Virus record (IMG/VR): IMGVR_UViG_3300010148_001875
Coordinates: 1-27,383 of that record
Length of the DNA: 27,383 nt
Source of the DNA: a virus
Strand: one strand, 5' to 3'
Every line of letters begins with the position of its first letter. The first letter of the stretch is position 1. Made by a program: the position numbers and the translations under genes. This document shows, one piece after another, positions 1,705-27,383 of this stretch. A model generated the notes under the pieces. That model did no database searches, was not told the origin of the DNA, and saw only the letters and a program-made list of their open reading frames with translations.

Positions 1705-1733
1705 CATATTATAACCATAATAGTTACTATATG
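1705..1733. promoter_or_regulatory. 29-bp near-palindrome, candidate operator
   Basis: The sequence is symmetric about position 1719: CATAT (1705-1709) pairs with ATATG (1729-1733), TAAC (1712-1715) with GTTA (1723-1726), and the inner AT with AT. Eleven of fourteen positions pair. It lies between and across the -35 and -10 of the leftward promoter and next to the Cro-like regulator gene, so it is a natural binding site for a dimer of that protein. AT-rich DNA yields chance palindromes, so the binding role is inferred. Confidence 0.5.
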
Positions 1734-1737
1734 TAAA
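1708..1737 (-). promoter_or_regulatory. Leftward sigma-70-like promoter for the recombinase pair
   Basis: On the minus strand TTTACA (1737-1732, five of six to the -35 consensus) is followed after 18 bases by a perfect TATAAT (1713-1708). Transcription should start near 1700 and run into the Sak4-like and DUF669 genes. A weaker rightward candidate (TTGCAT 1702-1707, 17 bases, TACTAT 1725-1730) overlaps it. Confidence 0.7.
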
Positions 1738-2120: not shown

Positions 2121-4241
2121 GTGTTTCAGCTTAATATAACCGAGGACGACACATCCTTGGAGCAAGCACTTGCCTACTATGATGAAGGCTATAATGTTGT
2201 CCCTCTGCAAAGATCCAACAAGAAACCACCATCATTTCTAGGTAGCTGGGAACAATACAAAGAAACTAGACCATCTAGGGATCTTGTAGAGTCCTGGTTC
2301 AAAGATAGAGATAATCTACAGGTAGCACTTGTCTGCGGTAAGTTTGTGGTCGTTGATGCTGACTCACCAGAGGCTATGGATTGGGTAGAAAAGAATATGC
2401 CTCCATGTCCGTTTAAAGTCATCACTGGTAAGGGTATGCATTACTATTACAATAACCCTGAAAACTATACAACTTTTGCTACAAGAAGGACTGCTGAAAC
2501 GCCTATAGAACGCTTGATAGACATTAGAGGTGTAGGCGGTCTAATCATAGCACCATGGAACAGACACGCTAACGGACAAGTATATAAGCCAGTTACCTTT
2601 GCAGATTGGAAGATCTATGATCATAACGATTTACCAGACTTTACTGAAATTGAGTTCCAAAAGATAACAGGTGTACCAAAGACCGATACTGGCGTTCAAA
2701 CTGCACCATTTTCATTAGATGGTGTATTAGAGGGCTCTAGGAACGACCAGGCTGCACGTATTGCAGGCTATTTAATATCAAAGAATGTTAACCTAGAGTT
2801 CGTTAGAATCTTCTTACAGAACTGGAATACCAACAATAACCCACCTTTACCACAAGCAGAGATAGATGGCGTAGTAGAGAGCGTCAAAAATACACACGAT
2901 AGAAAAAATCAGTTAGCACCATTATTTACCCAAGTTACAGAAACCATACAAAAACCAAAAGATTTATTTAATCCTCCAGGCTTGCTCAAAGATATGTTTA
3001 AGTTTTGTGAAGAGATAGCACAAGTTCCACAACCAGAACTATCACTTGTAGGTGCGTTAGCACTAGCTAGTGTTACCTGTGGACGTATTTATAGAACCAA
3101 TATGAATAACTTTTCTTCTATGTATTTCATGGGTATCGCTAAGTCAGGTCAAGGTAAAGAGAATATAAAAACATTTGTAGAGTCAGTATTAAACGCATCA
3201 GATCATGAAAAGCTTGTTGTAGGTGATGGTTATACATCAAGTGGTGCTGTTCACTCGGTATTAAAGATGCGTCCTACACAGATAACCATTATGGATGAAT
3301 TTGGTAAAAGATTAGAGGCTATAAGTAATTCAGGCAATACCAATAAAGAAGATGGTATACAAACGCTTATGGAAGCCTGGGGTCGTTGTCATGGCACATT
3401 AAGACCAGACAACTACTCGCTTATGAATGTGCAAGAACAATACAAGGAAATGATGATGAGCCGTGTTACCCATAAACCAGCTATTACATTGGTTGGCTTA
3501 TCTGTTCCTAAAAACTTTTATGGTGCGTTAAATGGTGGCAGGATTGCAGACGGGTTCCTAAACCGCTTTGTAGTCGTTGAATCAACAGAGCCAAGGAGAG
3601 TGGGTGAACTCAAACGATTCAAATCGCCACCAACGTCCATTGTCAACTGGGTAAATTACATTAGAAGACAAAGAGGTAGCATGAGTGATTTATCTAGGGA
3701 TAATGCTGAATTAGATTTAGATCAAATCGTATTAGACTTTGATAGGGAATCTGAAGAGATCTTGCAAGATTTCGCAAGAGAGATAATAAAACGACAAGAT
3801 ATACTAGAAAAAGATAACCTAGAGCCTCTTCTAAGCCGTTCTAAGGAGAAAGCTATGCGTTTGTCGTTGTTATGTACTCTTGCGTCTAATGCTGACGCTA
3901 AGACGATTACAGGAGACGTTACAAGGTGGGCTGTAGACTTTATCAGATATTATGACCTGTTATTTATAGAAGCTTGTAGAGATAAGGTGGCTAGCAGTGC
4001 AACTGAATCTAAGATCAAGCAAGTATTATCTTTCATAAGATCTAGGAATGGCGAGGGTATATCTAAACGTGAAGTAGATAGACACGAACTATTCCGTAGC
4101 ATGAAGTCTTATGAAGTAAAAGAAATTATTGAAAGGCTTAAGAATGCGGGAGAAATACAAGAGGTTGAGATAAAGATAGGTGGTAAAGGACGACCTGCTA
4201 AACGCTTTGTAGCTGTAGATCCAAACTTCTTTGCTGATTAG
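2121..4241 (+). CDS. Bifunctional primase-polymerase/helicase-like replication protein
   Basis: The 706-residue protein has three parts. Residues about 10-185 form a Prim-Pol domain (PF09250-type) with VVVDADS giving the Asp79/Asp81 pair, GKGMHYYY with His107, and LIDIRGVGG with Asp134. Residues about 200-262 look like a PriCT linker helix bundle. Residues about 285-600 match a DUF3987-type helicase-like ATPase with AKSGQGKE (Lys346) and a Walker B ITIMDEFGK (Asp392, Glu393). The last 90 residues resemble a winged helix. It likely primes and unwinds phage DNA. The start is a GTG one base after the regulator's stop, so expression is probably coupled. Its TAG shares one base with the next GTG. 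Confidence 0.85.
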   Translation: MFQLNITEDDTSLEQALAYYDEGYNVVPLQRSNKKPPSFLGSWEQYKETRPSRDLVESWFKDRDNLQVALVCGKFVVVDADSPEAMDWVEKNMPPCPFKVITGKGMHYYYNNPENYTTFATRRTAETPIERLIDIRGVGGLIIAPWNRHANGQVYKPVTFADWKIYDHNDLPDFTEIEFQKITGVPKTDTGVQTAPFSLDGVLEGSRNDQAARIAGYLISKNVNLEFVRIFLQNWNTNNNPPLPQAEIDGVVESVKNTHDRKNQLAPLFTQVTETIQKPKDLFNPPGLLKDMFKFCEEIAQVPQPELSLVGALALASVTCGRIYRTNMNNFSSMYFMGIAKSGQGKENIKTFVESVLNASDHEKLVVGDGYTSSGAVHSVLKMRPTQITIMDEFGKRLEAISNSGNTNKEDGIQTLMEAWGRCHGTLRPDNYSLMNVQEQYKEMMMSRVTHKPAITLVGLSVPKNFYGALNGGRIADGFLNRFVVVESTEPRRVGELKRFKSPPTSIVNWVNYIRRQRGSMSDLSRDNAELDLDQIVLDFDRESEEILQDFAREIIKRQDILEKDNLEPLLSRSKEKAMRLSLLCTLASNADAKTITGDVTRWAVDFIRYYDLLFIEACRDKVASSATESKIKQVLSFIRSRNGEGISKREVDRHELFRSMKSYEVKEIIERLKNAGEIQEVEIKIGGKGRPAKRFVAVDPNFFAD

Positions 4242-4699
4242 TGAGACTACAAGTAATACCATTAACTATACGTGACGCTAACGAGTTTGTTACTAACTTT
4301 CATAGACATAATAAAGCAGTAAGAGGTGCCAAATTTGCAATAGGTGCTTCTTATAATGATCAGCTTGTAGGTGTAGCCATGGTGGGTAGACCAATATCAC
4401 GTAGACTGGATGATGGTTTTACGGCAGAAGTAGTACGTGCTTGTACTCATGATGATGCACCAAAGAATACCAATTCATTCTTGTATGGGCGTTGTTGGAG
4501 GATCTGGCAACAGATGGGTGGCAGAACCATGATAACTTACACACTGCAAACTGAATCAGGATCAAGTTTAAAAGCTGCTGGATTTAAAATAATCGGAGAA
4601 ACTAAAACAGAGAAGAACCATAAAGGTTGGACTACAAGACCTGGTAGGGAATGGCAACCTGTTACAGGTCAAGCAAAATTTAAGTGGGGTAAAGATTAA
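4241..4699 (+). CDS. GNAT-like / XF1762-family protein
   Basis: The 152-residue protein resembles the phage family named XF1762 in databases and has a GNAT-like pattern: FHRHNKAVRGAKFAIGA near the start, LVGVAMVGRPISRRLDDG, EVVRACTHDD, TYTLQTESGSSLKAAGFK. The SLKAAGF segment is the usual late GNAT helix and strand. It begins with GTG overlapping the primase stop by one base and overlaps the convergent structural gene by four bases at its end. Phage GNAT-fold proteins include Mom-type DNA-modifying enzymes, so a role in DNA modification is possible, but no substrate can be read from the sequence. Confidence 0.6.
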   Translation: MRLQVIPLTIRDANEFVTNFHRHNKAVRGAKFAIGASYNDQLVGVAMVGRPISRRLDDGFTAEVVRACTHDDAPKNTNSFLYGRCWRIWQQMGGRTMITYTLQTESGSSLKAAGFKIIGETKTEKNHKGWTTRPGREWQPVTGQAKFKWGKD

Positions 4700-17517: not shown

Positions 17518-17696
17518 ACAAATCTAGATAATACCAGTGACACTAATATGAATGGATATACAGCCCAAATCATGTTTTCTAACTTGTCAAACCTTTTAGA
17601 ACCATCTTCTAATCTTTTTTCTATATTTGCATATCTTATAGAACACTCTTTTTCGTGAGTTTCTATTTTGTTTAGTGCGTTATTTGGATTTTTCAT
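17514..17696 (-). CDS. XhlA-like small membrane protein, holin accessory candidate
   Basis: The 60-residue protein has a soluble, charged N-terminal helix (ECSIRYANIEKRLEDGSKRF) and a C-terminal membrane segment (MIWAVYPFILVSLVLSRF). This is the XhlA (haemolysin XhlA) arrangement found beside holins and endolysins. It overlaps the cyclase gene at an ATGA junction and the i-spanin gene by four bases. It probably takes part in timing or forming the inner-membrane lesion, but it is not proof of a holin on its own. Confidence 0.65.
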   Translation of the reverse strand: MKNPNNALNKIETHEKECSIRYANIEKRLEDGSKRFDKLENMIWAVYPFILVSLVLSRFV

Positions 17697-19444
17697 AAGA
17701 TTGTATAAATATTTATAGATTTTTCTTTTCCTTTTACCTTAATGCTATCTAACTCTTTAAGCGTTATTTGGTCGCTAAAGTTTTTTGCATGAATAGTATC
17801 ATAACCTATAACAATATCTTCTCCAACCACCTTCGTAGAACTCTCTAAACGTGCTGCCAAATTAACAGCATCACCTATGGCTGTGTAATCAAATCTAGTA
17901 TCGCTACCCATGTTACCAATAACAGCATATCCGGTATTCACACCTATACCTATTTCAACACCCAGACCCGCAAATTTTATTTGGTCTTGAATTTCTTTTG
18001 CACAAAGAACTGCTGCTGTTTCGTGGTTTGGTAAATCTAAGGGTGCATTAAATATAGCCATCATAGCGTCACCAATATACTTATCCACCATACCGCCAAA
18101 GTTTTTTACAGCATTGGCTTGAATAGTTAGAGCTTTGTTCATTATTTCTGTTACTTCTTCAGGTTCTAATTTTTCTGATAATGCCGTAAAGCCACGAACA
18201 TCAGTAAAAAGAAAAGTGCAATATCTTCTTTCACCACCTAACACTAAAGATTCTGGATTGTCTTGTAACTTTTGAACTTGTCTAGGATCAAGATAATGCT
18301 CAAACTGTTTTTTAATTTGTTGGCGTAATTTGTACTGTTTTCTAAAGTTTAGATAGAAAGCAATGGCACCAGTAATGAATTGAGAAACAAAAGTCCATGA
18401 AAAATCTATTAAATAGCCCTTTTGAATGCTAAAAGCTCCTGTAAAGCCCGTAGTGAAGAGTAAAACCACAGCAAGACTTACGCCCTTAGTTACACCAAGA
18501 TAATTAATTACAAGCCACGTCAACGACACAAAAATTCCAAAAATTAATATTTCTAACGCAAGAGCAAAATCTGGCACAAACGGAGACTTTTCTATCAATA
18601 TTGACTCAGATAACGCAGCTTGTATTTTGTGCGGTTCTAATAAACCAACCGGTGTTGCAAGTTGTGGCATGATTCCAGGAGCAGTCACTCCAACAAATAC
18701 AAACTTACCTGCAACATTCATTTCAGCTAGTGTAGTTTGTGGTGTATCAACCCAACTGATCCATTTGCGACCAAGATTATCTGTTTTAACTGGTGGTATT
18801 CCTCTTACAGCTATTTCTTGTATACCAACTTCATTGGTAGTAATAATGTATGTTTTAGCACCTGTAAGTGTTTTTAAGACTTCTGTACCAAAAGAACTAA
18901 CATATCCATCAGGGGTTTTAAGTAACAATGGTATTCTTCTGACCAAGTTATCTATATCGACTGGTGCACTAGCAATACCTTGATTTGCATTTTCTTGTAG
19001 TACATCTATATTTTGTATAACACCAGGCGTAGACATACCACCGACATCATCACCCTTAATAACAGTGCCTGTAGTTTTAGGATAATTACCATTATCATTT
19101 TCAAACATTGCTAATACAGATGGTGCGTATCCAAGGGTAGAGGCAAATACTTCATCACCACCCATGCGATCAGCTTGTGGAAATCCTATAACCCAACCAA
19201 CACCCATAGCACCTTCATTTATTAGATCTACTTGTATTTGTGCGAGTGTCCTCCTAGGAAATGGCCAACCCCCTTCTTCTTCAATATCTTCTTCTGTGAT
19301 ATTCAACACAACAAAATTACCAGATGGCTCTGGCGTAGTAACAAAAGCATCAAATACTTTTAACTTTAATATCTCAGTTGGCGTGCTTTGAAACACAAGT
19401 GGCAAAGACAGTATTATAAGTATTGGTAATAATAGCCGTTTCAT
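17693..19444 (-). CDS. CHASE2-domain class III adenylate cyclase, 583 aa
   Basis: A membrane helix (residues about 4-18) leads into an extracytoplasmic CHASE2 sensor domain (about 20-290: VFDAFVTTPEP, EEDIEEEGGWPFPRR, FVFVGVTAPG). Three membrane helices follow (about 295-315, 321-340, 348-366), then a linker (FEHYLDPRQVQKL) and a cyclase domain (about 405-583). All expected catalytic residues are visible: metal ligands Asp415 (FTDVRGF) and Asp459 (YIGDAM), adenine-selecting Lys455 and Thr521 (DYTAIGD), and transition-state Asn528 and Arg532 (NLAAR). The Lys/Thr pair is the class IIIb type, favouring cAMP over cGMP. It starts on a TAATG junction with fecR and ends on ATGA with the XhlA-like gene. 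CHASE2 cyclases are common in bacteria, where they sense unknown external signals; I know of no characterised phage example. Confidence 0.93.
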   Translation of the reverse strand: MKRLLLPILIILSLPLVFQSTPTEILKLKVFDAFVTTPEPSGNFVVLNITEEDIEEEGGWPFPRRTLAQIQVDLINEGAMGVGWVIGFPQADRMGGDEVFASTLGYAPSVLAMFENDNGNYPKTTGTVIKGDDVGGMSTPGVIQNIDVLQENANQGIASAPVDIDNLVRRIPLLLKTPDGYVSSFGTEVLKTLTGAKTYIITTNEVGIQEIAVRGIPPVKTDNLGRKWISWVDTPQTTLAEMNVAGKFVFVGVTAPGIMPQLATPVGLLEPHKIQAALSESILIEKSPFVPDFALALEILIFGIFVSLTWLVINYLGVTKGVSLAVVLLFTTGFTGAFSIQKGYLIDFSWTFVSQFITGAIAFYLNFRKQYKLRQQIKKQFEHYLDPRQVQKLQDNPESLVLGGERRYCTFLFTDVRGFTALSEKLEPEEVTEIMNKALTIQANAVKNFGGMVDKYIGDAMMAIFNAPLDLPNHETAAVLCAKEIQDQIKFAGLGVEIGIGVNTGYAVIGNMGSDTRFDYTAIGDAVNLAARLESSTKVVGEDIVIGYDTIHAKNFSDQITLKELDSIKVKGKEKSINIYTIL

Positions 19445-20562
19445 TAATCACTTTGAGTGATAGTAATAACGCTGTCACTCCCTCCATTGATTTTTATTAT
19501 ATTAGATATACCATCTTGTATCAAAATAACTGTGTAGGCATCACTTCCGTTTAAATCTACTCTTACGCTTTCATTTACCTCTCTTCGAAGACTTATTACA
19601 TTTCCTGTGATTAAAGCTGTAATTTGTGTATCAGGGTCTCTACCAAGCAAGGTACCACTAATTTGTGTGCTAGTAGTTTGGGCAAGAACATCCTCTTCTT
19701 CTGCTATAGCCAAAGCATCTAAAACATTTAATAAATCTTCTAAGTAATTAACATCTAAGTAGTTTATATCTAATTCTGTAAACTCAAGACTATCATCTTT
19801 TAAATAATCTTCTGCGAGATAATCTATATCTAGATCGTTAAAATCTAATACACTATCAGTTTGCGTATTAGTAGTTTCTTCTTCTGTTAACACCTCTTCT
19901 TTTGGTGGGGTAACAATTAGCATATTGTCAATAACATCTAGAGTTAAATCTAATATGACAGGTTTTGTGGGTGCTGATTCAAAGACACTTACTGTTGTGG
20001 CTTCGTATGGTTTATTTAGTATTACACTACCCATGGCAGTTACTACCTCTATCTCTCCGCTAGATAATCCTAAAGCATCTGGTAATAGTATTATGAGACT
20101 GCGACCTAGTTCATCTACTGTAGCTGTAAAATCAGTGCCACGTATTGCTATGTTAGCTGTGGGTGTTTTGAGTTGTATATTTTGTTTATCTATTCTATTG
20201 AGATTGCCTGTAATAAACCTAGCAGTGCCAAGACCAAAAGTGATAGCCATTTTTGACTTAGAAGGGTCTGGATCATAGATATATTCATCTATCAGAAGTT
20301 GTGAGTGTTCAGTTAGTTTTACAACAGAATCATCCAGGAAGGTAATAGCCATTCTGCCATCTGTAGTAATAGCTTCGTCATTACTTTGTATAGCAAACTT
20401 TAGGTTAGCTTCGTATGGCTTGTCTCTTACTATCTGTGCTGAACCATTTAGTTCAGATATGTCACCTATATCAGCAGCTTGTGCTTGTACCTTGGTCGTT
20501 TTGAATGACGCAAACAGTAGAAGAAGCAGTCCCAGAAACTGATATGATTTTAAGCCAGTCAT
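19444..20562 (-). CDS. Exported FecR-domain protein with curlin-like tail, 372 aa
   Basis: A signal peptide occupies about residues 1-29 (Lys5, then LGLLLLLFASF and a KVQAQA end). Residues about 60-160 are a FecR domain (PF04773): DGRMAITFLDDSVVKL, then TGNLNRID, NIQLKTPTANIAIRGTDF. Residues 240-292 are rich in Asp, Leu and Tyr with an internal repeat. The tail (325-372) is beta-rich and has curlin-like spacing, with Ser364-x5-Gln370 and a Gln349-x-Gly-x2-Asn354 pattern. Stand-alone exported FecR proteins often sit next to CHASE2 cyclases, as here. It may be a periplasmic or surface partner that presents a signal to CHASE2. Its first 92 bases overlap the end of the curlin-like gene in another frame. 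Confidence 0.85.
   Translation of the reverse strand: MTGLKSYQFLGLLLLLFASFKTTKVQAQAADIGDISELNGSAQIVRDKPYEANLKFAIQSNDEAITTDGRMAITFLDDSVVKLTEHSQLLIDEYIYDPDPSKSKMAITFGLGTARFITGNLNRIDKQNIQLKTPTANIAIRGTDFTATVDELGRSLIILLPDALGLSSGEIEVVTAMGSVILNKPYEATTVSVFESAPTKPVILDLTLDVIDNMLIVTPPKEEVLTEEETTNTQTDSVLDFNDLDIDYLAEDYLKDDSLEFTELDINYLDVNYLEDLLNVLDALAIAEEEDVLAQTTSTQISGTLLGRDPDTQITALITGNVISLRREVNESVRVDLNGSDAYTVILIQDGISNIIKINGGSDSVITITQSD
19447..19461 (-). promoter_or_regulatory. mRNA hairpin just before the cyclase start codon
   Basis: A perfect six-base stem (ATCACT/AGTGAT) with a three-base loop ends immediately before the fecR stop codon, whose last base is the first base of the cyclase ATG. No Shine-Dalgarno sequence is apparent there. 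Ribosomes finishing fecR would melt it, so it may make cyclase translation depend on FecR synthesis. It may also be chance. Confidence 0.35.
19735..19836 (-). repeat. Acidic 14-residue repeat, two copies, in the FecR protein
   Basis: DLDIDYLAEDYLKD (residues 243-256) recurs as ELDINYLDVNYLED (263-276), twenty residues apart. The spacing of Asp/Asn, Tyr and Leu is kept. It may form a solenoid or bind divalent cations; nothing more can be said from sequence. Confidence 0.7.
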
Positions 20563-21196
20563 TATCTTGTGTGCTCAGTTGTTGTATGTTAAATGTTCTA
20601 GAACCGCCAGTATGATCTAACCAAAAATAACCACCTGCTGATGCATTTACACCTGTGCCTGTATAAGTAACTGTATTATCTGAACCATCTATATCCATAT
20701 AGTTAGTTGCACCATCTATATTTATATTTGAAGTAACTGTGTTATTTGAGCCTTGAATAATCCAATCTAAATCAAGAGATGCAGCTATAGCTGTTGTACC
20801 TTGATTCAAAGTAAAAGTATTACCGCTACCTGTAACTTGTACGTTTTGATTAGAGCCGTCTGAACTATATGTATCTGTGGGGTCTACTTGAATAGTAAAA
20901 GAGTTTGTACCACCAGTAAATTCATAGAATCCTGTGAAGTTGTCTGCAAATATATCACCAAGAAATTTATTAGTAGCACCTATCATGTTTATATCAAGGG
21001 TCATTGTGTTACCATCTAAATCAAAAGCATTGAGACTACCAGCAGTAGAGTTCAAGCCACCAATGATATTAGATATGCCTAATTGTTCTAAATCTATGTT
21101 TGCACCAGTGCCAGACTGATCAACGTAAATTTCATTATCTGCCGAAAAAACCACAAATGAACAAACAGCTAATACGCTTAATAGTTTATTCTTCAT
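20471..21196 (-). CDS. Exported curlin-like protein, 241 aa
   Basis: A signal peptide (MKNKLLSVLAVCSFVVFS) precedes a low-charge, Asn/Gly/Thr-rich beta protein. The first mature segment, IYVDQSGTGANIDLEQLGIS, has the curlin Gln-to-Gln spacing of eleven (Gln27, Gly29, Asn33, Gln38; the Asn is one place later than in CsgA repeats). Later GSGNTFTLNQG, GSNNTVTSNIN and GSDNTVTYTG segments repeat the theme loosely. The C-terminus TVCVIQNDQGTSTSC contains two cysteines that could pair. It lies directly after csgG, so it is the likely substrate of that channel. It is longer than CsgA and only weakly repetitive, hence curlin-like and not CsgA. The last 30 codons overlap fecR. Confidence 0.65.
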   Translation of the reverse strand: MKNKLLSVLAVCSFVVFSADNEIYVDQSGTGANIDLEQLGISNIIGGLNSTAGSLNAFDLDGNTMTLDINMIGATNKFLGDIFADNFTGFYEFTGGTNSFTIQVDPTDTYSSDGSNQNVQVTGSGNTFTLNQGTTAIAASLDLDWIIQGSNNTVTSNINIDGATNYMDIDGSDNTVTYTGTGVNASAGGYFWLDHTGGSRTFNIQQLSTQDNDWLKIISVSGTASSTVCVIQNDQGTSTSC

Positions 21197-22037
21197 AATT
21201 CAATTCTACTCCTACATTTTCATTTTGTAAAATCCAAAATCCCTTATCGTATCCTAGGTTTATTATCTCAAGCACACCACCTTCTATGGCTTTCATCAAA
21301 GCAATAGTAGAAGATTCATTTCTAGCATTACCTAATTCTATCTCTACTAGCTCTGTATTAGCTTCTATAAACCTAAATACATCTTCTGACTTACCATAGC
21401 TAAATATGGTTTTTTGACTTAAAACTTCTAGCAAAACCTCTCCTGTAGCAACAGAAACCATACGTAAACTAACGGTTATGTTATCTTCTCTATACTGAAC
21501 GCTGTTACCAATGCCTAAATACCTGGCTCCAATACCTCCACTTTCTAAATTAGCTTCGTAAGATATAACAGCACCTTCAATTAAAATACCAGCAAATAGT
21601 AAAGGTCTAAGTGCTTTCTTCTTTTCTTCTTCTGTTGCTGTTTGCTCTCTTGCAGACCGTATTAACTGTCTTTCTTTAGTCAGGTTATCTAAACCGACTC
21701 TTTCTACTACTCTAAAAAACTTACCATCTCCTGCATGTTTCAAAGCTCGTATAAGTAGTGCGTTTGGTTGTTGGGTAATAGCTGTACTAAATAAAGCAAA
21801 CTCAGAGTTAGATTTTCTTTGCCCAGTTTGATCTGTAAAAGCTGTAGGATAAACAGCTACAACAGGGCTTACCTCTGGTATAGGTGCATTTTTTAAATCT
21901 TGTGATTGTAAATCTTGTATAGAAACAATGTTATGAGCTTGAAATCTTTGCTCATAGGTATCTTCAAATTGATTTAATATAGAACAACTAGAACAAAAAA
22001 GTACCAATAGGTATCGTAATTTCAGTGACTGTTCCAT
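21186..22037 (-). CDS. csgG: CsgG curli secretion channel lipoprotein, 283 aa
   Basis: The match to CsgG runs over nearly the whole length: AVYPTAFTDQTGQRKS, FSTAITQQPNALLIRALK, FFRVVERVGLDNLTKERQ, IRSARE, EGAVISYEANLESGGIGA, RYLGIGNSVQYRED, TVSLRMVSVATGEVL, then FRFIEA and a final KGFW. The length (283) is close to the 277 of E. coli CsgG. The N-terminus is a lipoprotein signal with Cys18 the best lipidation site. CsgG forms a nine-subunit beta-barrel pore in the outer membrane that exports curlin. The residues at the E. coli Tyr51/Asn55 constriction differ here. It overlaps csgF by 50 bases and the curlin-like gene by 11. Confidence 0.96.
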   Translation of the reverse strand: MEQSLKLRYLLVLFCSSCSILNQFEDTYEQRFQAHNIVSIQDLQSQDLKNAPIPEVSPVVAVYPTAFTDQTGQRKSNSEFALFSTAITQQPNALLIRALKHAGDGKFFRVVERVGLDNLTKERQLIRSAREQTATEEEKKKALRPLLFAGILIEGAVISYEANLESGGIGARYLGIGNSVQYREDNITVSLRMVSVATGEVLLEVLSQKTIFSYGKSEDVFRFIEANTELVEIELGNARNESSTIALMKAIEGGVLEIINLGYDKGFWILQNENVGVELNYEE

Positions 22038-22530
22038 CGGCTTCCGTAATTTTTAGAGTTAACGTGACACCATCACTTGTATACTCAATGGTGTTTCCTT
22101 CAAGAGTTATTGTACCTGAATCAGATGGTGTTTCGCCAAATAGGTTATTCACTAGCTGTCTTGAAAGCTCTGCATACACTCGTGATTCTAAATTACGCAA
22201 AAATCTAGCTAATGTACTATTTTCTTTTTCTCTTTTTATTTCCTCCTGTAAAGCTTTTATTTCTTCTTTGAGTGTTAGTTTACGAGTATATTCCTGGTTT
22301 TCTATAGTAAGGTAATGTGAGCTGGTCCCAACACCACTAAAACTAGGAGATTTGAATTTATGTACTATTTGATCTGATTTTACATTTTGAGATAAGATGG
22401 CTAAAAATAATACAATACCAATAATTGATACCCATTCAATTACTTTTTGTGTCTCCTTTTCTTTTGCTCTCAATTGCAATTCAGCTTTGCTTGGTCTGCC
22501 TCTTTTTCTTTTAGTCTTTTCTTTGGTCAT
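21988..22530 (-). CDS. csgF: CsgF-like curli assembly factor with cytoplasmic basic tail
   Basis: Residues about 53-180 match CsgF: IVHKFKSPSFSGVG aligns with the E. coli TFQFRNPNFGGNP segment that plugs into the CsgG channel, then a helical FLRNLESRVYAELSRQLV region and a beta C-terminus (NTIEYTSDGVTLTLKITEADG, ITIPIG). Unusually, 32 highly basic residues (KRKRGRPSKAEL, an RGRP AT-hook-like core) precede the membrane or signal helix (about 33-46), with VKS/D as a possible cleavage point. No later in-frame ATG, GTG or TTG offers a normal short signal peptide. It precedes and overlaps csgG, and its start lies within the end of the previous membrane-protein gene. Confidence 0.85.
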   Translation of the reverse strand: MTKEKTKRKRGRPSKAELQLRAKEKETQKVIEWVSIIGIVLFLAILSQNVKSDQIVHKFKSPSFSGVGTSSHYLTIENQEYTRKLTLKEEIKALQEEIKREKENSTLARFLRNLESRVYAELSRQLVNNLFGETPSDSGTITLEGNTIEYTSDGVTLTLKITEADGTVTEITIPIGTFLF

Positions 22531-23414: not shown

Positions 23415-23576
23415 TTAATTACCTTTGTCTTTAGCCTTTAAGATGTTAAGAGCTAATAGATCTATAAACTTATACAGTTTACCAATCCAAGCATCATCCT
23501 TTGGTGTAGGTGTAGTAGCTGCAACTAAAGATGCAACTGTAACGATTGTGGTTACCCACATAATTATATCCGCCAT
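23415..23576 (-). CDS. Small membrane protein, 53 aa, holin-like candidate
   Basis: A 53-codon frame from ATG 23576 to TAA 23415 encodes an N-terminal membrane helix (IIMWVTTIVTVASLVAA), a TPTPKDDAW turn and an amphipathic helix (KLYKFIDLLALNILKAKDK). Phage proteins of this form are common in marine late regions. The start abuts the previous stop (TAA directly followed by ATG), with GAGGAT upstream. A single span of this size could act as a holin, but no test is possible from sequence. Confidence 0.65.
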   Translation of the reverse strand: MADIIMWVTTIVTVASLVAATTPTPKDDAWIGKLYKFIDLLALNILKAKDKGN

Positions 23577-24124: not shown

Positions 24125-27100
24125 TTATTCTCCTTTTAAAGTTTGTATTTCGGCTTTTAATTCATCTACTTGCGTAGATAATTCTTGTACTGCTTTAATT
24201 AATGGATGTACAAACATCTCTTGTGAGATTCTTTGTGAACCATCTTTTTCTTCTGACCAACCACCAAAAGTATCTACGCCTTGTTTATCAAGTGCCTCTT
24301 TTACTTCTTGAGCAATCATACCGTGCAGTTTTGTTTCTGTGTCCATGTGATTTTCTGTTTCAGAATAATCATCATAATGTTCTGGAAACTCTGAATTTGG
24401 TTTCCAGTTGTAAGTTACAGTTCTTAAATCATTTATAAAATCTAAACCTAAAATGTCATTTTCTATATTTGTCTTTTTATGTACATCTGAACTTCTTGTC
24501 CAAGAAGCATTTGTACCAAAATCATTGAAAACAGTATTACTAGGTTTACCAAATCTAAATTCGTTATTTTGTGAAGCGGTTATGTTATAGCCGATTACAA
24601 TTTGGTTCAAAGCACTTCCACTAGAAACATCATTAAAATCACCGATAATAACATTCTGTGCACCATCTGTTAGCGTGGTATCATGGTTTGCAGCTCCACG
24701 ACCTACAATAATATTATTACTTCCTGTAGTAATACCACCACCAGAATCATGTCCTACACAAGTATTTTCTGTTCCTGTAGTTATTGCATCTCCTGCAAAA
24801 GAACCTAAACACACGTTAAAAGCACCTGTAGAGCAAACTCCTAAAGCGTTAAAACCCATAGCTGTATTATTTGATGCAGTAGTATTAGCGTCTAAAGCAC
24901 CACTACCAAAAGCAGAATTATTGTTTCCTGTAGTATTTGCACCTAATGCACCAGCACCAGTTCCAGTATTTTCTGTACCTGTGGTGTTTAGTCGCAAAGC
25001 GTAAAAACCAACACCAGTATTGTAACTTGCAGTTGTTTGTGTGTGTAAGGCTTGTCTTCCTAATCCAGTATTATACTCACCTGTTGTATTATTTCGTAGT
25101 GAACTTACACCTACAGCAGTGTTATCATCACCTGTAGTATTTGCAGCTAAAGCAACTTCACCTAGTGCTGCATTGTCTCTACCTGTGGTGTTTGCGACCA
25201 TTGTATTAGTACCTACTGCGGTATTAAATTGACCTGTTGTGTTTGCGTTTAAAGCAGCATAACCTACAGCTGTGTTACTTCCAGCGGTGGTATTATTTGC
25301 TAAAGAGCTTGTACCTAATGCAGTGTTTTTGCTACCAGTAGTATTGTCTAACATAGCATTGTCACCCATAGCTACATTTTCTTCACCTGTCGTGTTTGCA
25401 CCTAAAGAGTTAGAACCAACAGCAGTATTAAAAGAACCTGTTGTTGTAGCATCTCCTGCAAGTCCACCTATAATAGTGTTTCTTACTCCTGTGGTTACTG
25501 CATTACCCGCATCATAACCAACGGCTGTGTTATGCATATTTACAGCACTAGCAGGATTCATTGCAAACAAAGCACCGCTACCTATTGCAACTGATTGACT
25601 TCCTAAAACAGAACTACTCATAGCGTTATAACCAATTGCTACATTAGAATCAGCATCTGTAAGTGCATCACCTGCTAGACCACCCATTATGGTGTTGTTA
25701 ATGCCTGTGGTTATTGAGCCACCTGCTTCATAACCAATAGCTACATTGTAAGCATTAGTAGCTGATGTAAAGTTTTGGTCTCGTAATGCAAAAGAACCAA
25801 TAGCAACATTATTAGCTCCTTTTGTATCTACTGTTAATGCTTCATATCCTAAAACTACATTGTAACTAGCGGTAGTAAGAGAATCACCTGCTAAAGAACC
25901 AACTACTGTGTTGTTTGCACCTGTAGTGTTTGATAACATTGCACCTTTACCAATTGCGGTATTATTAGATGCGGTAGTATTAGAGGCTAATGCACTATCT
26001 CCCAAAGAAGTATTAGAACCACCAGTTGTATTAGCTCCTAAACTGTTATAACCAAGTCCTGTATTATTAGCACCTGTGGTATTAGCATCTAAGGCTTCTG
26101 ATCCTACTGCTGTATTTTGAGAAGCTGTAGTGTTTAAAGCTAATGCACTTCTTCCTACAGCTACATTATTAGTACCAGTTGTATTATTAGCTAAAGTAGA
26201 ACGACCAACAGCTGTGTTATCACTAGCAGTGGTATTGGAGCCTAAAGAGTGCATACCTACAGCTACATTATCATCTCCTGTTGTAGCAGCATCTAAGGCA
26301 AAAGTACCTATAGCTACACTTCCTGCACCTGTAGTATTTGCTGTTAAAGATGTGCTGCCAACTGCTGTGTTATTAGCACCTGTTGTATTAGAACCTAATG
26401 CAGTACTACCAATCGCAGTATTATCATCTGCTGTAGTTGCAGCATCTAGTGATAAAGTTCCTACTGCTGTATTTCTAGTACCTGTGGTGTTAGCACCCAT
26501 AGAGTTATAACCAACTGCTGTGTTGTTTGCAGCAGTTGTGTTTGCATCTAAAGCTAAACTTCCTACAGCTACATTTTGAGAACCAGTATTTAATCTTAAA
26601 GCATCTTTACCCATTGCTGTATTATCACTTGCTGTTGTAACAGTAAGTAATGCTGAATTACCTATAGCTGTATTGTTACCACCTGTTGTGTTAGCGAACA
26701 AAGCTGCATTACCGACTGCTGTGTTAGGTGTTCCAGTAGTATTAGCTTGTAATGCAGAAGTACCAACTGCTACATTGTTATTAGCGGTTGTATTTGCTTT
26801 TAATGCATCTTTACCAACAGCCACATCACCAGCACCTGTAGTGTTTGATGTTAAAGCGTTAAAACCAACAGATGTATTATTATCTGCCGTGGTATTAGAA
26901 GCTAATGTATTTTGACCTATAGCAGTATTTTGGTCGCCTGTGGTATTTGCTAACAAAGCAAATGAACCCATTGCAATATTAGAAGTACCTGTAGTGTTAG
27001 CACCTAAAGAAGCATGACCAACTGCTGTATTGTTTCCAGCAGTAGTATTAGCATCTAATGCAAAAGTACCTATAGCTGTATTTTGTGTACCTGTAGTGTT

Positions 27101-27383
27101 TAATAACAAAGCATTAGTTCCAACTCCTACGTTGTTATCTGCAGTTGTATTAGCCCCTAAAGCATTTATACCTATTCCTACATTTTGTATTCCTGTAGTG
27201 TTAGCATCTAGTGCTAAAGAACCAACTGCTGTATTATTTTCACCTGTAGTGTTTAATAACAAAGCTGTATAACCTAAAGCAGTATTGTTATCGGCTGTAG
27301 TGTTACTTGCCAGTGCAGCTCTACCTATTCCAACATTTTGCGTACCAGAGGTGTTGCTTTCCATTGCTTTACGACCAACAGCA
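24125..27383 (-). CDS. Tail fibre/spike with 17-aa repeats and S74 chaperone, 5' end outside window
   Basis: The reading frame is open to the right edge (AVGRKAM precedes the first internal Met), so the true start lies beyond 27383. At least 1085 residues are present. About fifty copies of a 17-residue repeat, N-T-A-V-G-x3-AL-x2-NTTG-x2 in form, make a beta-rich shaft like the head repeats of trimeric adhesins. The last 122 residues are a peptidase S74 intramolecular chaperone: SSDVHKKTNI with the likely catalytic Ser959 and Lys964 (numbered from the Met at 27364), GLDFINDLRTVTYNWK, HGMIAQEV and a final coiled coil. S74 domains trimerise the fibre and then cut themselves off. It probably contacts the host surface and decides host range. 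Confidence 0.92.
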   Translation of the reverse strand, partial: AVGRKAMESNTSGTQNVGIGRAALASNTTADNNTALGYTALLLNTTGENNTAVGSLALDANTTGIQNVGIGINALGANTTADNNVGVGTNALLLNTTGTQNTAIGTFALDANTTAGNNTAVGHASLGANTTGTSNIAMGSFALLANTTGDQNTAIGQNTLASNTTADNNTSVGFNALTSNTTGAGDVAVGKDALKANTTANNNVAVGTSALQANTTGTPNTAVGNAALFANTTGGNNTAIGNSALLTVTTASDNTAMGKDALRLNTGSQNVAVGSLALDANTTAANNTAVGYNSMGANTTGTRNTAVGTLSLDAATTADDNTAIGSTALGSNTTGANNTAVGSTSLTANTTGAGSVAIGTFALDAATTGDDNVAVGMHSLGSNTTASDNTAVGRSTLANNTTGTNNVAVGRSALALNTTASQNTAVGSEALDANTTGANNTGLGYNSLGANTTGGSNTSLGDSALASNTTASNNTAIGKGAMLSNTTGANNTVVGSLAGDSLTTASYNVVLGYEALTVDTKGANNVAIGSFALRDQNFTSATNAYNVAIGYEAGGSITTGINNTIMGGLAGDALTDADSNVAIGYNAMSSSVLGSQSVAIGSGALFAMNPASAVNMHNTAVGYDAGNAVTTGVRNTIIGGLAGDATTTGSFNTAVGSNSLGANTTGEENVAMGDNAMLDNTTGSKNTALGTSSLANNTTAGSNTAVGYAALNANTTGQFNTAVGTNTMVANTTGRDNAALGEVALAANTTGDDNTAVGVSSLRNNTTGEYNTGLGRQALHTQTTASYNTGVGFYALRLNTTGTENTGTGAGALGANTTGNNNSAFGSGALDANTTASNNTAMGFNALGVCSTGAFNVCLGSFAGDAITTGTENTCVGHDSGGGITTGSNNIIVGRGAANHDTTLTDGAQNVIIGDFNDVSSGSALNQIVIGYNITASQNNEFRFGKPSNTVFNDFGTNASWTRSSDVHKKTNIENDILGLDFINDLRTVTYNWKPNSEFPEHYDDYSETENHMDTETKLHGMIAQEVKEALDKQGVDTFGGWSEEKDGSQRISQEMFVHPLIKAVQELSTQVDELKAEIQTLKGE
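24671..27383 (-). repeat. Tandem 51-bp (17-aa) repeats in the tail fibre
   Basis: About fifty units in tandem encode N-[TV]-[AG]-[VIM]-G-x3-[AL]-L-x2-N-T-T-[GA]-x2. Codon choice differs between units (the NTT-G/A codons vary at third positions), so DNA identity is much lower than protein identity, pointing to old repeats under protein-level selection. A few longer units (EAGGSITTG, MGGLAGD) break the array near 25450-25800 and 24680-24800. On the plus strand the array reads as several proline/valine-rich shadow frames. Confidence 0.9.

Follow-up and report, generated by a model that had tools for sequence, protein, structure and literature searches.

Likely superimposed divergent promoters between the recombination and replication genes of a phage group linked to SAR86

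The window, by which we mean the whole stretch of DNA analysed, is a 27,383-base virus record in which two gene sets diverge from a short intergenic region. On the minus strand, the left operon begins with a gene for a Sak4-like single-strand annealing or RecA-like ATPase (952-1674; phrog_124, E = 1.6e-47; PF13479, E = 1.6e-25), continues with a gene for a DUF669 or phage single-strand DNA-binding (SSB) protein (495-959; PF05037, E = 8.2e-8; phrog_378, E = 8.3e-10) and likely ends at a hairpin resembling a terminator, which was found by a pattern scan (456-484) and bears a run of T on either strand. On the plus strand, the right operon begins with a Cro/XRE-type regulator gene (1772-2119), whose product matches the transcriptional repressor family phrog_35 (E = 1.7e-7) and the Cro family PF09048 (E = 1e-4), the latter at 22.6 bits against a curated cut-off of 32.7. 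It is followed by genes for a Prim-Pol primase/helicase-like replication protein (2121-4241; PF09250, E = 1e-19; phrog_3022, E = 9.4e-86) and, last in the operon, a Mom-like DNA modification protein (4241-4699; phrog_1384, E = 3e-38; PF25680, E = 3.8e-9). The intergenic region from the sak4 start codon (1674) to the regulator start (1772) comprises 97 bases, predominantly A and T.

Within this region, a conserved element at 1700-1737 has the appearance of two antiparallel, superimposed promoters of the sigma70 type in 45 distinct versions of its core. In all 45 cores it consists of a conserved left block, ACTTGnnnATTATA (1700-1713), and a conserved right block, TACnATrTGTAAA (1725-1737), held apart by an 11-nt central spacer (1714-1724) of constant length. 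The predicted leftward promoter, on the minus strand, has the -35 hexamer TTTACA (1732-1737; TTTACA in 40 of the 45 distinct cores) and, after an 18-bp spacer, the -10 hexamer TATAAT (1708-1713; TATAAT in 43 of 45); its spacing alone would place the start near 1701. The predicted rightward promoter, on the plus strand, has its -35 at 1702-1707 (TTGCAT in the window), where TTG is present in 45/45 cores and the last three letters are free, and, 17 bp further on, its -10 at 1725-1730 (TACTAT in the window, TACnAT in relatives; 44/45), with a predicted start near 1737. The rightward -10 reads TACAAT in 31 cores, TACCAT in 10, TACTAT in 3 and TACAGT in 1. Column conservation in 43 representatives also marks two tracts, one upstream of each promoter at a distance customary for UP elements, which may be UP-element-like. 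The first, A-rich on the plus strand, occupies 1691-1699, approximately -46 to -38 relative to the rightward promoter; the second, at 1741-1747, is T-rich on the plus strand, A-rich when read leftward, and lies correspondingly far from the leftward promoter. In the same representatives, the distance from gene to element is about 26 to 46 letters on the left and 27 to 56 on the right, gene-start letters included, and because the element lies so close to both genes there is little room for another promoter. The leftward promoter matches the consensus at 8 to 11 of 12 positions (11 in 40/45 cores) and the rightward promoter at 7 to 10 of 12, the leftward being the closer of the two in 45/45.

An earlier note on this DNA had described a 29-bp near-palindrome across a leftward promoter with a perfect TATAAT, next to a Cro-like regulator on the opposite strand, and had proposed it as the operator of that regulator. 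The letters are as described: 11 of 14 pairs about a centre at 1719 are complementary (1705-1733), they overlie the leftward TTTACA (1737-1732), 18-bp spacer and TATAAT (1713-1708), which scored 11/12 in a promoter scan of the window, and the regulator gene on the plus strand is of the Cro/XRE type. The palindrome itself is weak when set against chance and its symmetry is not conserved. At least 11 of 14 pairs were reached in 8.6% of simulated intergenic regions (5000 Markov runs, 91 nt, same dinucleotide make-up) and in 8.2% of letter-shuffled ones; because the intergenic region is so AT-rich that such symmetry arises by chance in 8 to 9% of cases, it is weak evidence, and the palindrome barely exceeds chance. 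Across the window, 8 centres reach 11/14 or more versus 3.8 ± 2.0 expected (30 simulations). With the two conserved blocks of the window held fixed and the spacer randomized, 11/14 was obtained in 1.4% of draws. A single spacer among the 37 distinct ones in the 45 cores has at least four of its five inner pairs complementary, namely the window's own, and the chance of finding at least one such spacer among 37 is 0.41.

Relatives were gathered with the regulator, Sak4 and primase as queries against viral contigs, the best 80 being kept from each scan. A DNA-pattern scan of the element added at least the loci L226-L318, and a rescan with alignment A1 recovered near relatives again, with the best 80 kept. 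The loci overlap, many being the same contig fetched more than once, and distinct sequences were counted. The core search covered 467 sequences (466 loci and the window), of which 451 carry the divergent sak/regulator pair, 12 have no sak match and 4 have no regulator match. The core expression, which demanded TTG, TA.A and TA..AT at fixed distances so that conservation at these letters is partly selected for, matched 444 of the 463 sequences with a regulator match and yielded 46 distinct cores of 42 nt. Of the 19 rows left unmatched, 7 have the element with one -10 letter changed, 9 are cut by contig ends and 3 are chromosomal SAR86 loci; a full-length phage intergenic region without the element, or without its TTG, was not found among them. 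The seven one-letter variants were entered as two cores, giving 48 in total and 45 after trimming to 39 nt. Pattern-fetched loci favour conserved copies; excluding the cores seen only there leaves 41 of the 45, all seen in loci fetched by protein.

In the loci examined, the element was confined to this gene divergence. All 281 matches to its pattern in 318 loci fall between sak and the regulator gene, 276 with both genes visible and 5 with one gene and a nearby contig end, and a single copy of the whole element (up to 3 mismatches) is present in each of seven larger related records, possibly fragments. Among annotated phage records, 4 had a weak relative of the regulator and 213 had a primase match; identity was below 60% throughout, and none of the primase matches covered 80%.

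Substitutions were counted by Fitch parsimony on a tree built from the regulator and Sak4 proteins of 45 representatives. In the 45 cores, the 11 spacer sites accumulated 98 changes (8.9 per site), compared with 2 over the 6 sites of the leftward -10, 5 over the 6 sites of the leftward -35, 6 over the 6 sites of the rightward -10 (5 at 1728 and 1 at 1729) and 0 over the 3 sites of the TTG (1702-1704); the remainder of the rightward -35 (1705-1707) changed 25 times over 3 sites. The 41 protein-fetched cores gave 92, 2, 5, 6, 0 and 25 changes, respectively. On the same tree, the regulator gene (109 codons) has 8.77 changes per third codon position and sak4 (230 codons) has 6.83, the figures for fourfold sites being 11.4 (10 sites) and 9.1 (39 sites), respectively. 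Since the spacer rate of 8.9 is close to the 8.77 of regulator third codon positions, the middle of the palindrome behaves as nearly free sequence: the promoter elements hardly change, while the spacer is near neutral. L018, a relative with a 90% identical regulator, has the same spacer as the window, but in L010, whose regulator is 96% identical, 6 of the 11 spacer sites are different; this pattern points to possible recombination across the promoter.

These rates bear directly on the proposed operator, in which a dimer of the adjacent Cro-like regulator would read symmetric half-sites across the spacer. Cro-type proteins usually autoregulate from an overlapping operator, and the 11/14 symmetry in the window would suit such an arrangement, as would the 10/14 reached by a remote relative (L480) about a centre moved by half a base pair, which by itself favours symmetry. 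PY54 Cro binds a single operator (PMC4488713). In the 45 cores, however, complementarity is no greater than the letters alone would give: inner pairs average 1.11 of 5 compared with 1.02 ± 0.10 in shuffles, and outer pairs 6.36 of 9 compared with 6.33 ± 0.04 (1.10 versus 1.03 and 6.29 versus 6.27 in the 41 protein-fetched cores). The frequent changes at 1705-1707 are not accompanied by compensating changes at 1731-1733, and the spacer has the substitution rate of third codon positions, whereas the recognition region of the regulator is largely fixed; a spacer read by the regulator would be conserved and this one is not, so the regulator is unlikely to be a spacer reader. When the centre was slid to eight other positions, inner complementarity was above that at 1719 in five and below it in three. 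Copies of the palindrome are not in excess within the window, where its inner 15-mer pattern (up to 3 mismatches, both strands) gave 24 matches compared with 33 for a reversed-pattern control and the next-best match (23540-23554, 1 mismatch) lies inside an open frame. Thus, the symmetric half-sites conserved alongside the regulator that characterize a lambda-type operator were not found in the 45 cores, and several related copies were found neither in the window nor in the seven larger records, which have one element each. The earlier note had itself named half-sites that are not conserved in relatives as grounds for abandoning the operator, and on the shuffles, the compensation analysis and the rates we reject it; the operator reading is not supported and we consider it very unlikely. 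As a separate observation, inner complementarity in the relatives peaks at centre 1717 (0.396, compared with 0.222 at 1719).

We consider it highly probable that the element is an antiparallel pair of sigma70-type promoters, one leftward and one rightward, on the same ~36 bp. The leftward TTTACA-18-TATAAT would drive sak4 and ssb, and the rightward TTGnnn-17-TACnAT would drive the genes for the regulator, the primase/helicase and the Mom-like protein. With each -10 adjoining the -35 of the other promoter, a composite word of about YTTRCATATTRTA would provide the -35 of one strand and the -10 of the opposite one. Because each arm doubles in this way as a -35 and a -10, the pair would account for the outer part of the palindrome, its inner part being attributable to chance. 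Both hexamer sets and both spacings are kept in the 45 cores, among which the spacer is written in 37 ways. What the earlier note had recognized as promoter-like sequence for the recombination genes, beside a divergent Cro-like regulator, is retained in the promoter pair; its operator is not, and the rightward promoter had been missed.

It could be argued that only the leftward promoter is real, that the right block is merely its -35 and that the regulator is transcribed from elsewhere, since the rightward promoter of the window (TTGCAT, TACTAT) matches only 7/12 of the consensus and is absent from the promoter-scan list. We regard this as improbable. Positions 1725-1730 lie outside both the leftward -35 and the leftward -10, yet they change only at 1728 (five times) and 1729 (once), and TTG at 1702-1704 is unchanged in all 45 cores. 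In addition, the 17-bp rightward spacing is kept where the leftward spacing changes. This was seen in a remote relative (L474/L480) on a 53,352-base contig (G094:C4) in a genome of the SAR86 order, which has the same gene pair, with a regulator 53% and a Sak4 68% identical to those of the window over the matched stretches. Its site is one letter longer ahead of ATTATA and one letter shorter in the spacer; because of these compensating length changes it is not among the 45 cores. The leftward -10 is thereby 1 nt nearer its -35, at a spacing of 17 bp. In the rightward direction TTGAAT-17-TACTAT persists, with the spacing measured to the second of two TACTAT words that overlap (5 beyond the first, which would give a spacing of 12).

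A replication origin or an RNA hairpin at the same site appears most improbable. The cumulative GC skew turns in this area, the site is AT-rich and both strands of the window copy fold better than shuffles (z of -3.3 and -2.6). However, the skew turn coincides with the switch in coding strand, the good folding is as expected because the site is a palindrome, and the pairs of that palindrome, which are the pairs of any hairpin, are not conserved in relatives. No Rfam match at the gathering threshold was obtained in the window, and a tRNA search found none.

From the observed sequence, conservation, spacing and single copy per searched record, we infer that the promoter pair would be transcribed from starts near the positions given above, that one polymerase would probably exclude another and that the regulator may act here. 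Because both promoters share the same DNA, RNA polymerase of the host would probably be held in one orientation at a time, as argued for pLS20, and because the leftward promoter is closer to the consensus in 45/45 cores, it would be expected to prevail by default. Its better fit would favour the recombination and SSB functions first, the rightward promoter would make the regulator and the replication proteins, and the regulator, if bound here, may shift the balance between the two.

As a predicted pair, the element belongs to a known class, that of overlapping divergent promoters. It is similar to the Pc/Pr pair of pLS20, in which divergent promoters lie on the same DNA with reciprocal -10/-35 geometry: the authors of the pLS20 report favour a Pr whose -10 and -35 are located at the -35 and -10 of Pc, a weak promoter drives the regulator gene (Rco) and the strong one is the main promoter, and exclusion between polymerases is put forward as one component of the switch (PMC4207663). 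Reciprocal positions are likewise present here at the level of sequence alone (1702-1707/1708-1713 and 1725-1730/1732-1737 in 45 cores), and a regulator gene lies downstream of one promoter, being the next gene to the right (start at 1772). The two systems differ in that pLS20 is a Bacillus subtilis plasmid whose switch controls conjugation, with mapped starts and with operators and DNA looping shown (PMC4207663), whereas the present case is a divergence of phage replication and recombination genes known from its sequence. The element is also reminiscent of the bidirectional promoters of Escherichia coli and Salmonella, where pseudo-symmetric DNA can hold polymerase in either of two mutually exclusive orientations (PMC12825309, PMC10268837). 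By definition, those promoters have a common -10 and starts 7 to 25 bp apart (PMC10268837); here, the -10s are separate and some 36 bp lie between the predicted starts, ~1701 and ~1737. Polymerase competition was reportedly precluded at the five bidirectional promoters tested in E. coli, where basal transcription was too low (PMC12825309). Finally, PY54 (PMC4488713) resembles the present locus in that a phage regulator of the Cro type neighbours a region of divergent promoters with a single site; unlike the present group, PY54 is a temperate phage whose operator has been studied experimentally, whereas here the symmetry is not conserved and a tyrosine integrase was not seen in the seven larger records, which may be fragments.

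The conserved blocks carry more invariance than two promoters would demand. C1727, the third and non-consensus letter of the rightward -10, and A1700 and C1701 are invariant in 45/45 cores and in 41/41 protein-fetched cores; because sigma70 recognition does not require these letters, another factor may read the blocks. We tentatively raise the possibility that the blocks are promoter elements and recognition sites of the regulator at once, the 11-bp spacer being ignored. The regulator would then read ACTTG/ATTATA and TACnATrTGTAAA directly, in competition with polymerase, an explanation that would add to the promoter pair and is not an alternative to it. The invariance of C1727 and A1700/C1701 is the best hint of such reading, and any binding by the regulator at this site would be expected to involve the blocks, because the spacer is not conserved. 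The largely fixed recognition region of the regulator is in keeping with this: an alignment of 24 members shows no variation at C67, S68, K73 or W75-R80, E69, A70 and S74 are each retained by at least 90% of the members, and variation is seen at residues 71 and 72. On the other side, the two block arms are not strictly symmetric.

The modelled structure of the regulator has helices at residues 49-56, 58-65, 69-77 and 84-93, with ten-residue pLDDT means of 85 to 91 across residues 51-100, and these helices are arranged in the model as in a helix-turn-helix domain. The top Foldseek matches were to YdaS of prophage CP-933P (PDB 8co2 and 8c7k; probability 1.00; E = 0.068 and 0.15; TM by query 0.46 and 0.44), which is only 23% identical to the window regulator. 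Foldseek returned the helix-turn-helix fold class at probabilities of up to 1.00 and no match at E ≤ 0.001, and the best match in a sequence search of solved structures had E = 0.07.

Regulator matches were obtained in 8 of 203 genomes of the SAR86 order, the 53-kb phage contig included. Chromosomal genes in SAR86 and SAR86-order genomes (L223, L224, L225 and L475/L479) share the helix-turn-helix half of the regulator, are 60 to 74% identical to the window regulator over the matched parts and lie in similar small gene clusters. One of these chromosomal operons (L225) has, in the divergent promoter region of its own regulator homologue, ACTTGTAAATTATA, which is a form of the left block also present in phages (for example, L131), as might be expected if the blocks are read by the regulator. 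Against this, the L225 match is equally a -35/-10 composite, the 13-mer ACTTGTAAWTTAT occurs 4 times in 5 such genomes with the L225 site included, which makes one match weak, and L223 and L224 have only the variant ACTTGTAATTAT. The chromosomal homologues therefore lend weak support to reading of the blocks. A motif common to the phages and the chromosomal SAR86 homologues was also considered and was not adopted, being suggestive in L225 alone.

Extending the same reasoning, it can be envisioned, with still less confidence, that these phages have a switch with no operator of its own, in which the regulator would read the two blocks that polymerase reads in both orientations, and the regulator and two antiparallel polymerases would compete for a single 36-bp site whose spacer is fixed in length and free in sequence. 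If this were the case, the switch would set the ratio of recombination to replication, and the DNA-binding half of its regulator would be common to chromosomal genes of the likely SAR86 hosts.

A 53-kb phage contig inside an assembly of the SAR86 order constitutes a likely host link, and SAR86 is the likely host of the phage group. This contig carries a 99-base direct repeat common to both of its ends (L487/L488) and, because of this terminal repeat, looks like a whole free phage genome and not an integrated one; its end genes, read from their translations, look like tail or structural genes. A tyrosine integrase was not found in the seven larger records, which may be fragments, and because of this and the apparently free phage the group is probably lytic.

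The element, in 45 distinct versions, would provide a natural example of superimposed divergent promoters that are under selection while the DNA between them drifts, and could serve as a test bed for the choice of orientation by RNA polymerase. It would also be the probable site of early control in a group of uncultured marine phages that are linked to bacteria of the SAR86 group. A note of caution follows for similar observations, in that promoter elements can themselves create AT-rich palindromes over promoters.

Two further regions of the window are of interest, both on the minus strand. Genes with CHASE2-adenylate/guanylate cyclase (Pfam E = 2.5e-26), FecR (E = 1.6e-9), CsgG (E = 9.5e-46) and CsgF (E = 4.2e-15) domains lie near each other at 17693-22530, and a gene at 20471-21196 has no Pfam match. 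The presence of cyclase and FecR genes in a phage seems unusual. At 24125-27364, a gene encodes a highly repetitive protein of 1079 amino acids with NTTxxNNTAxG-like repeats and a Peptidase_S74 chaperone domain near its end.
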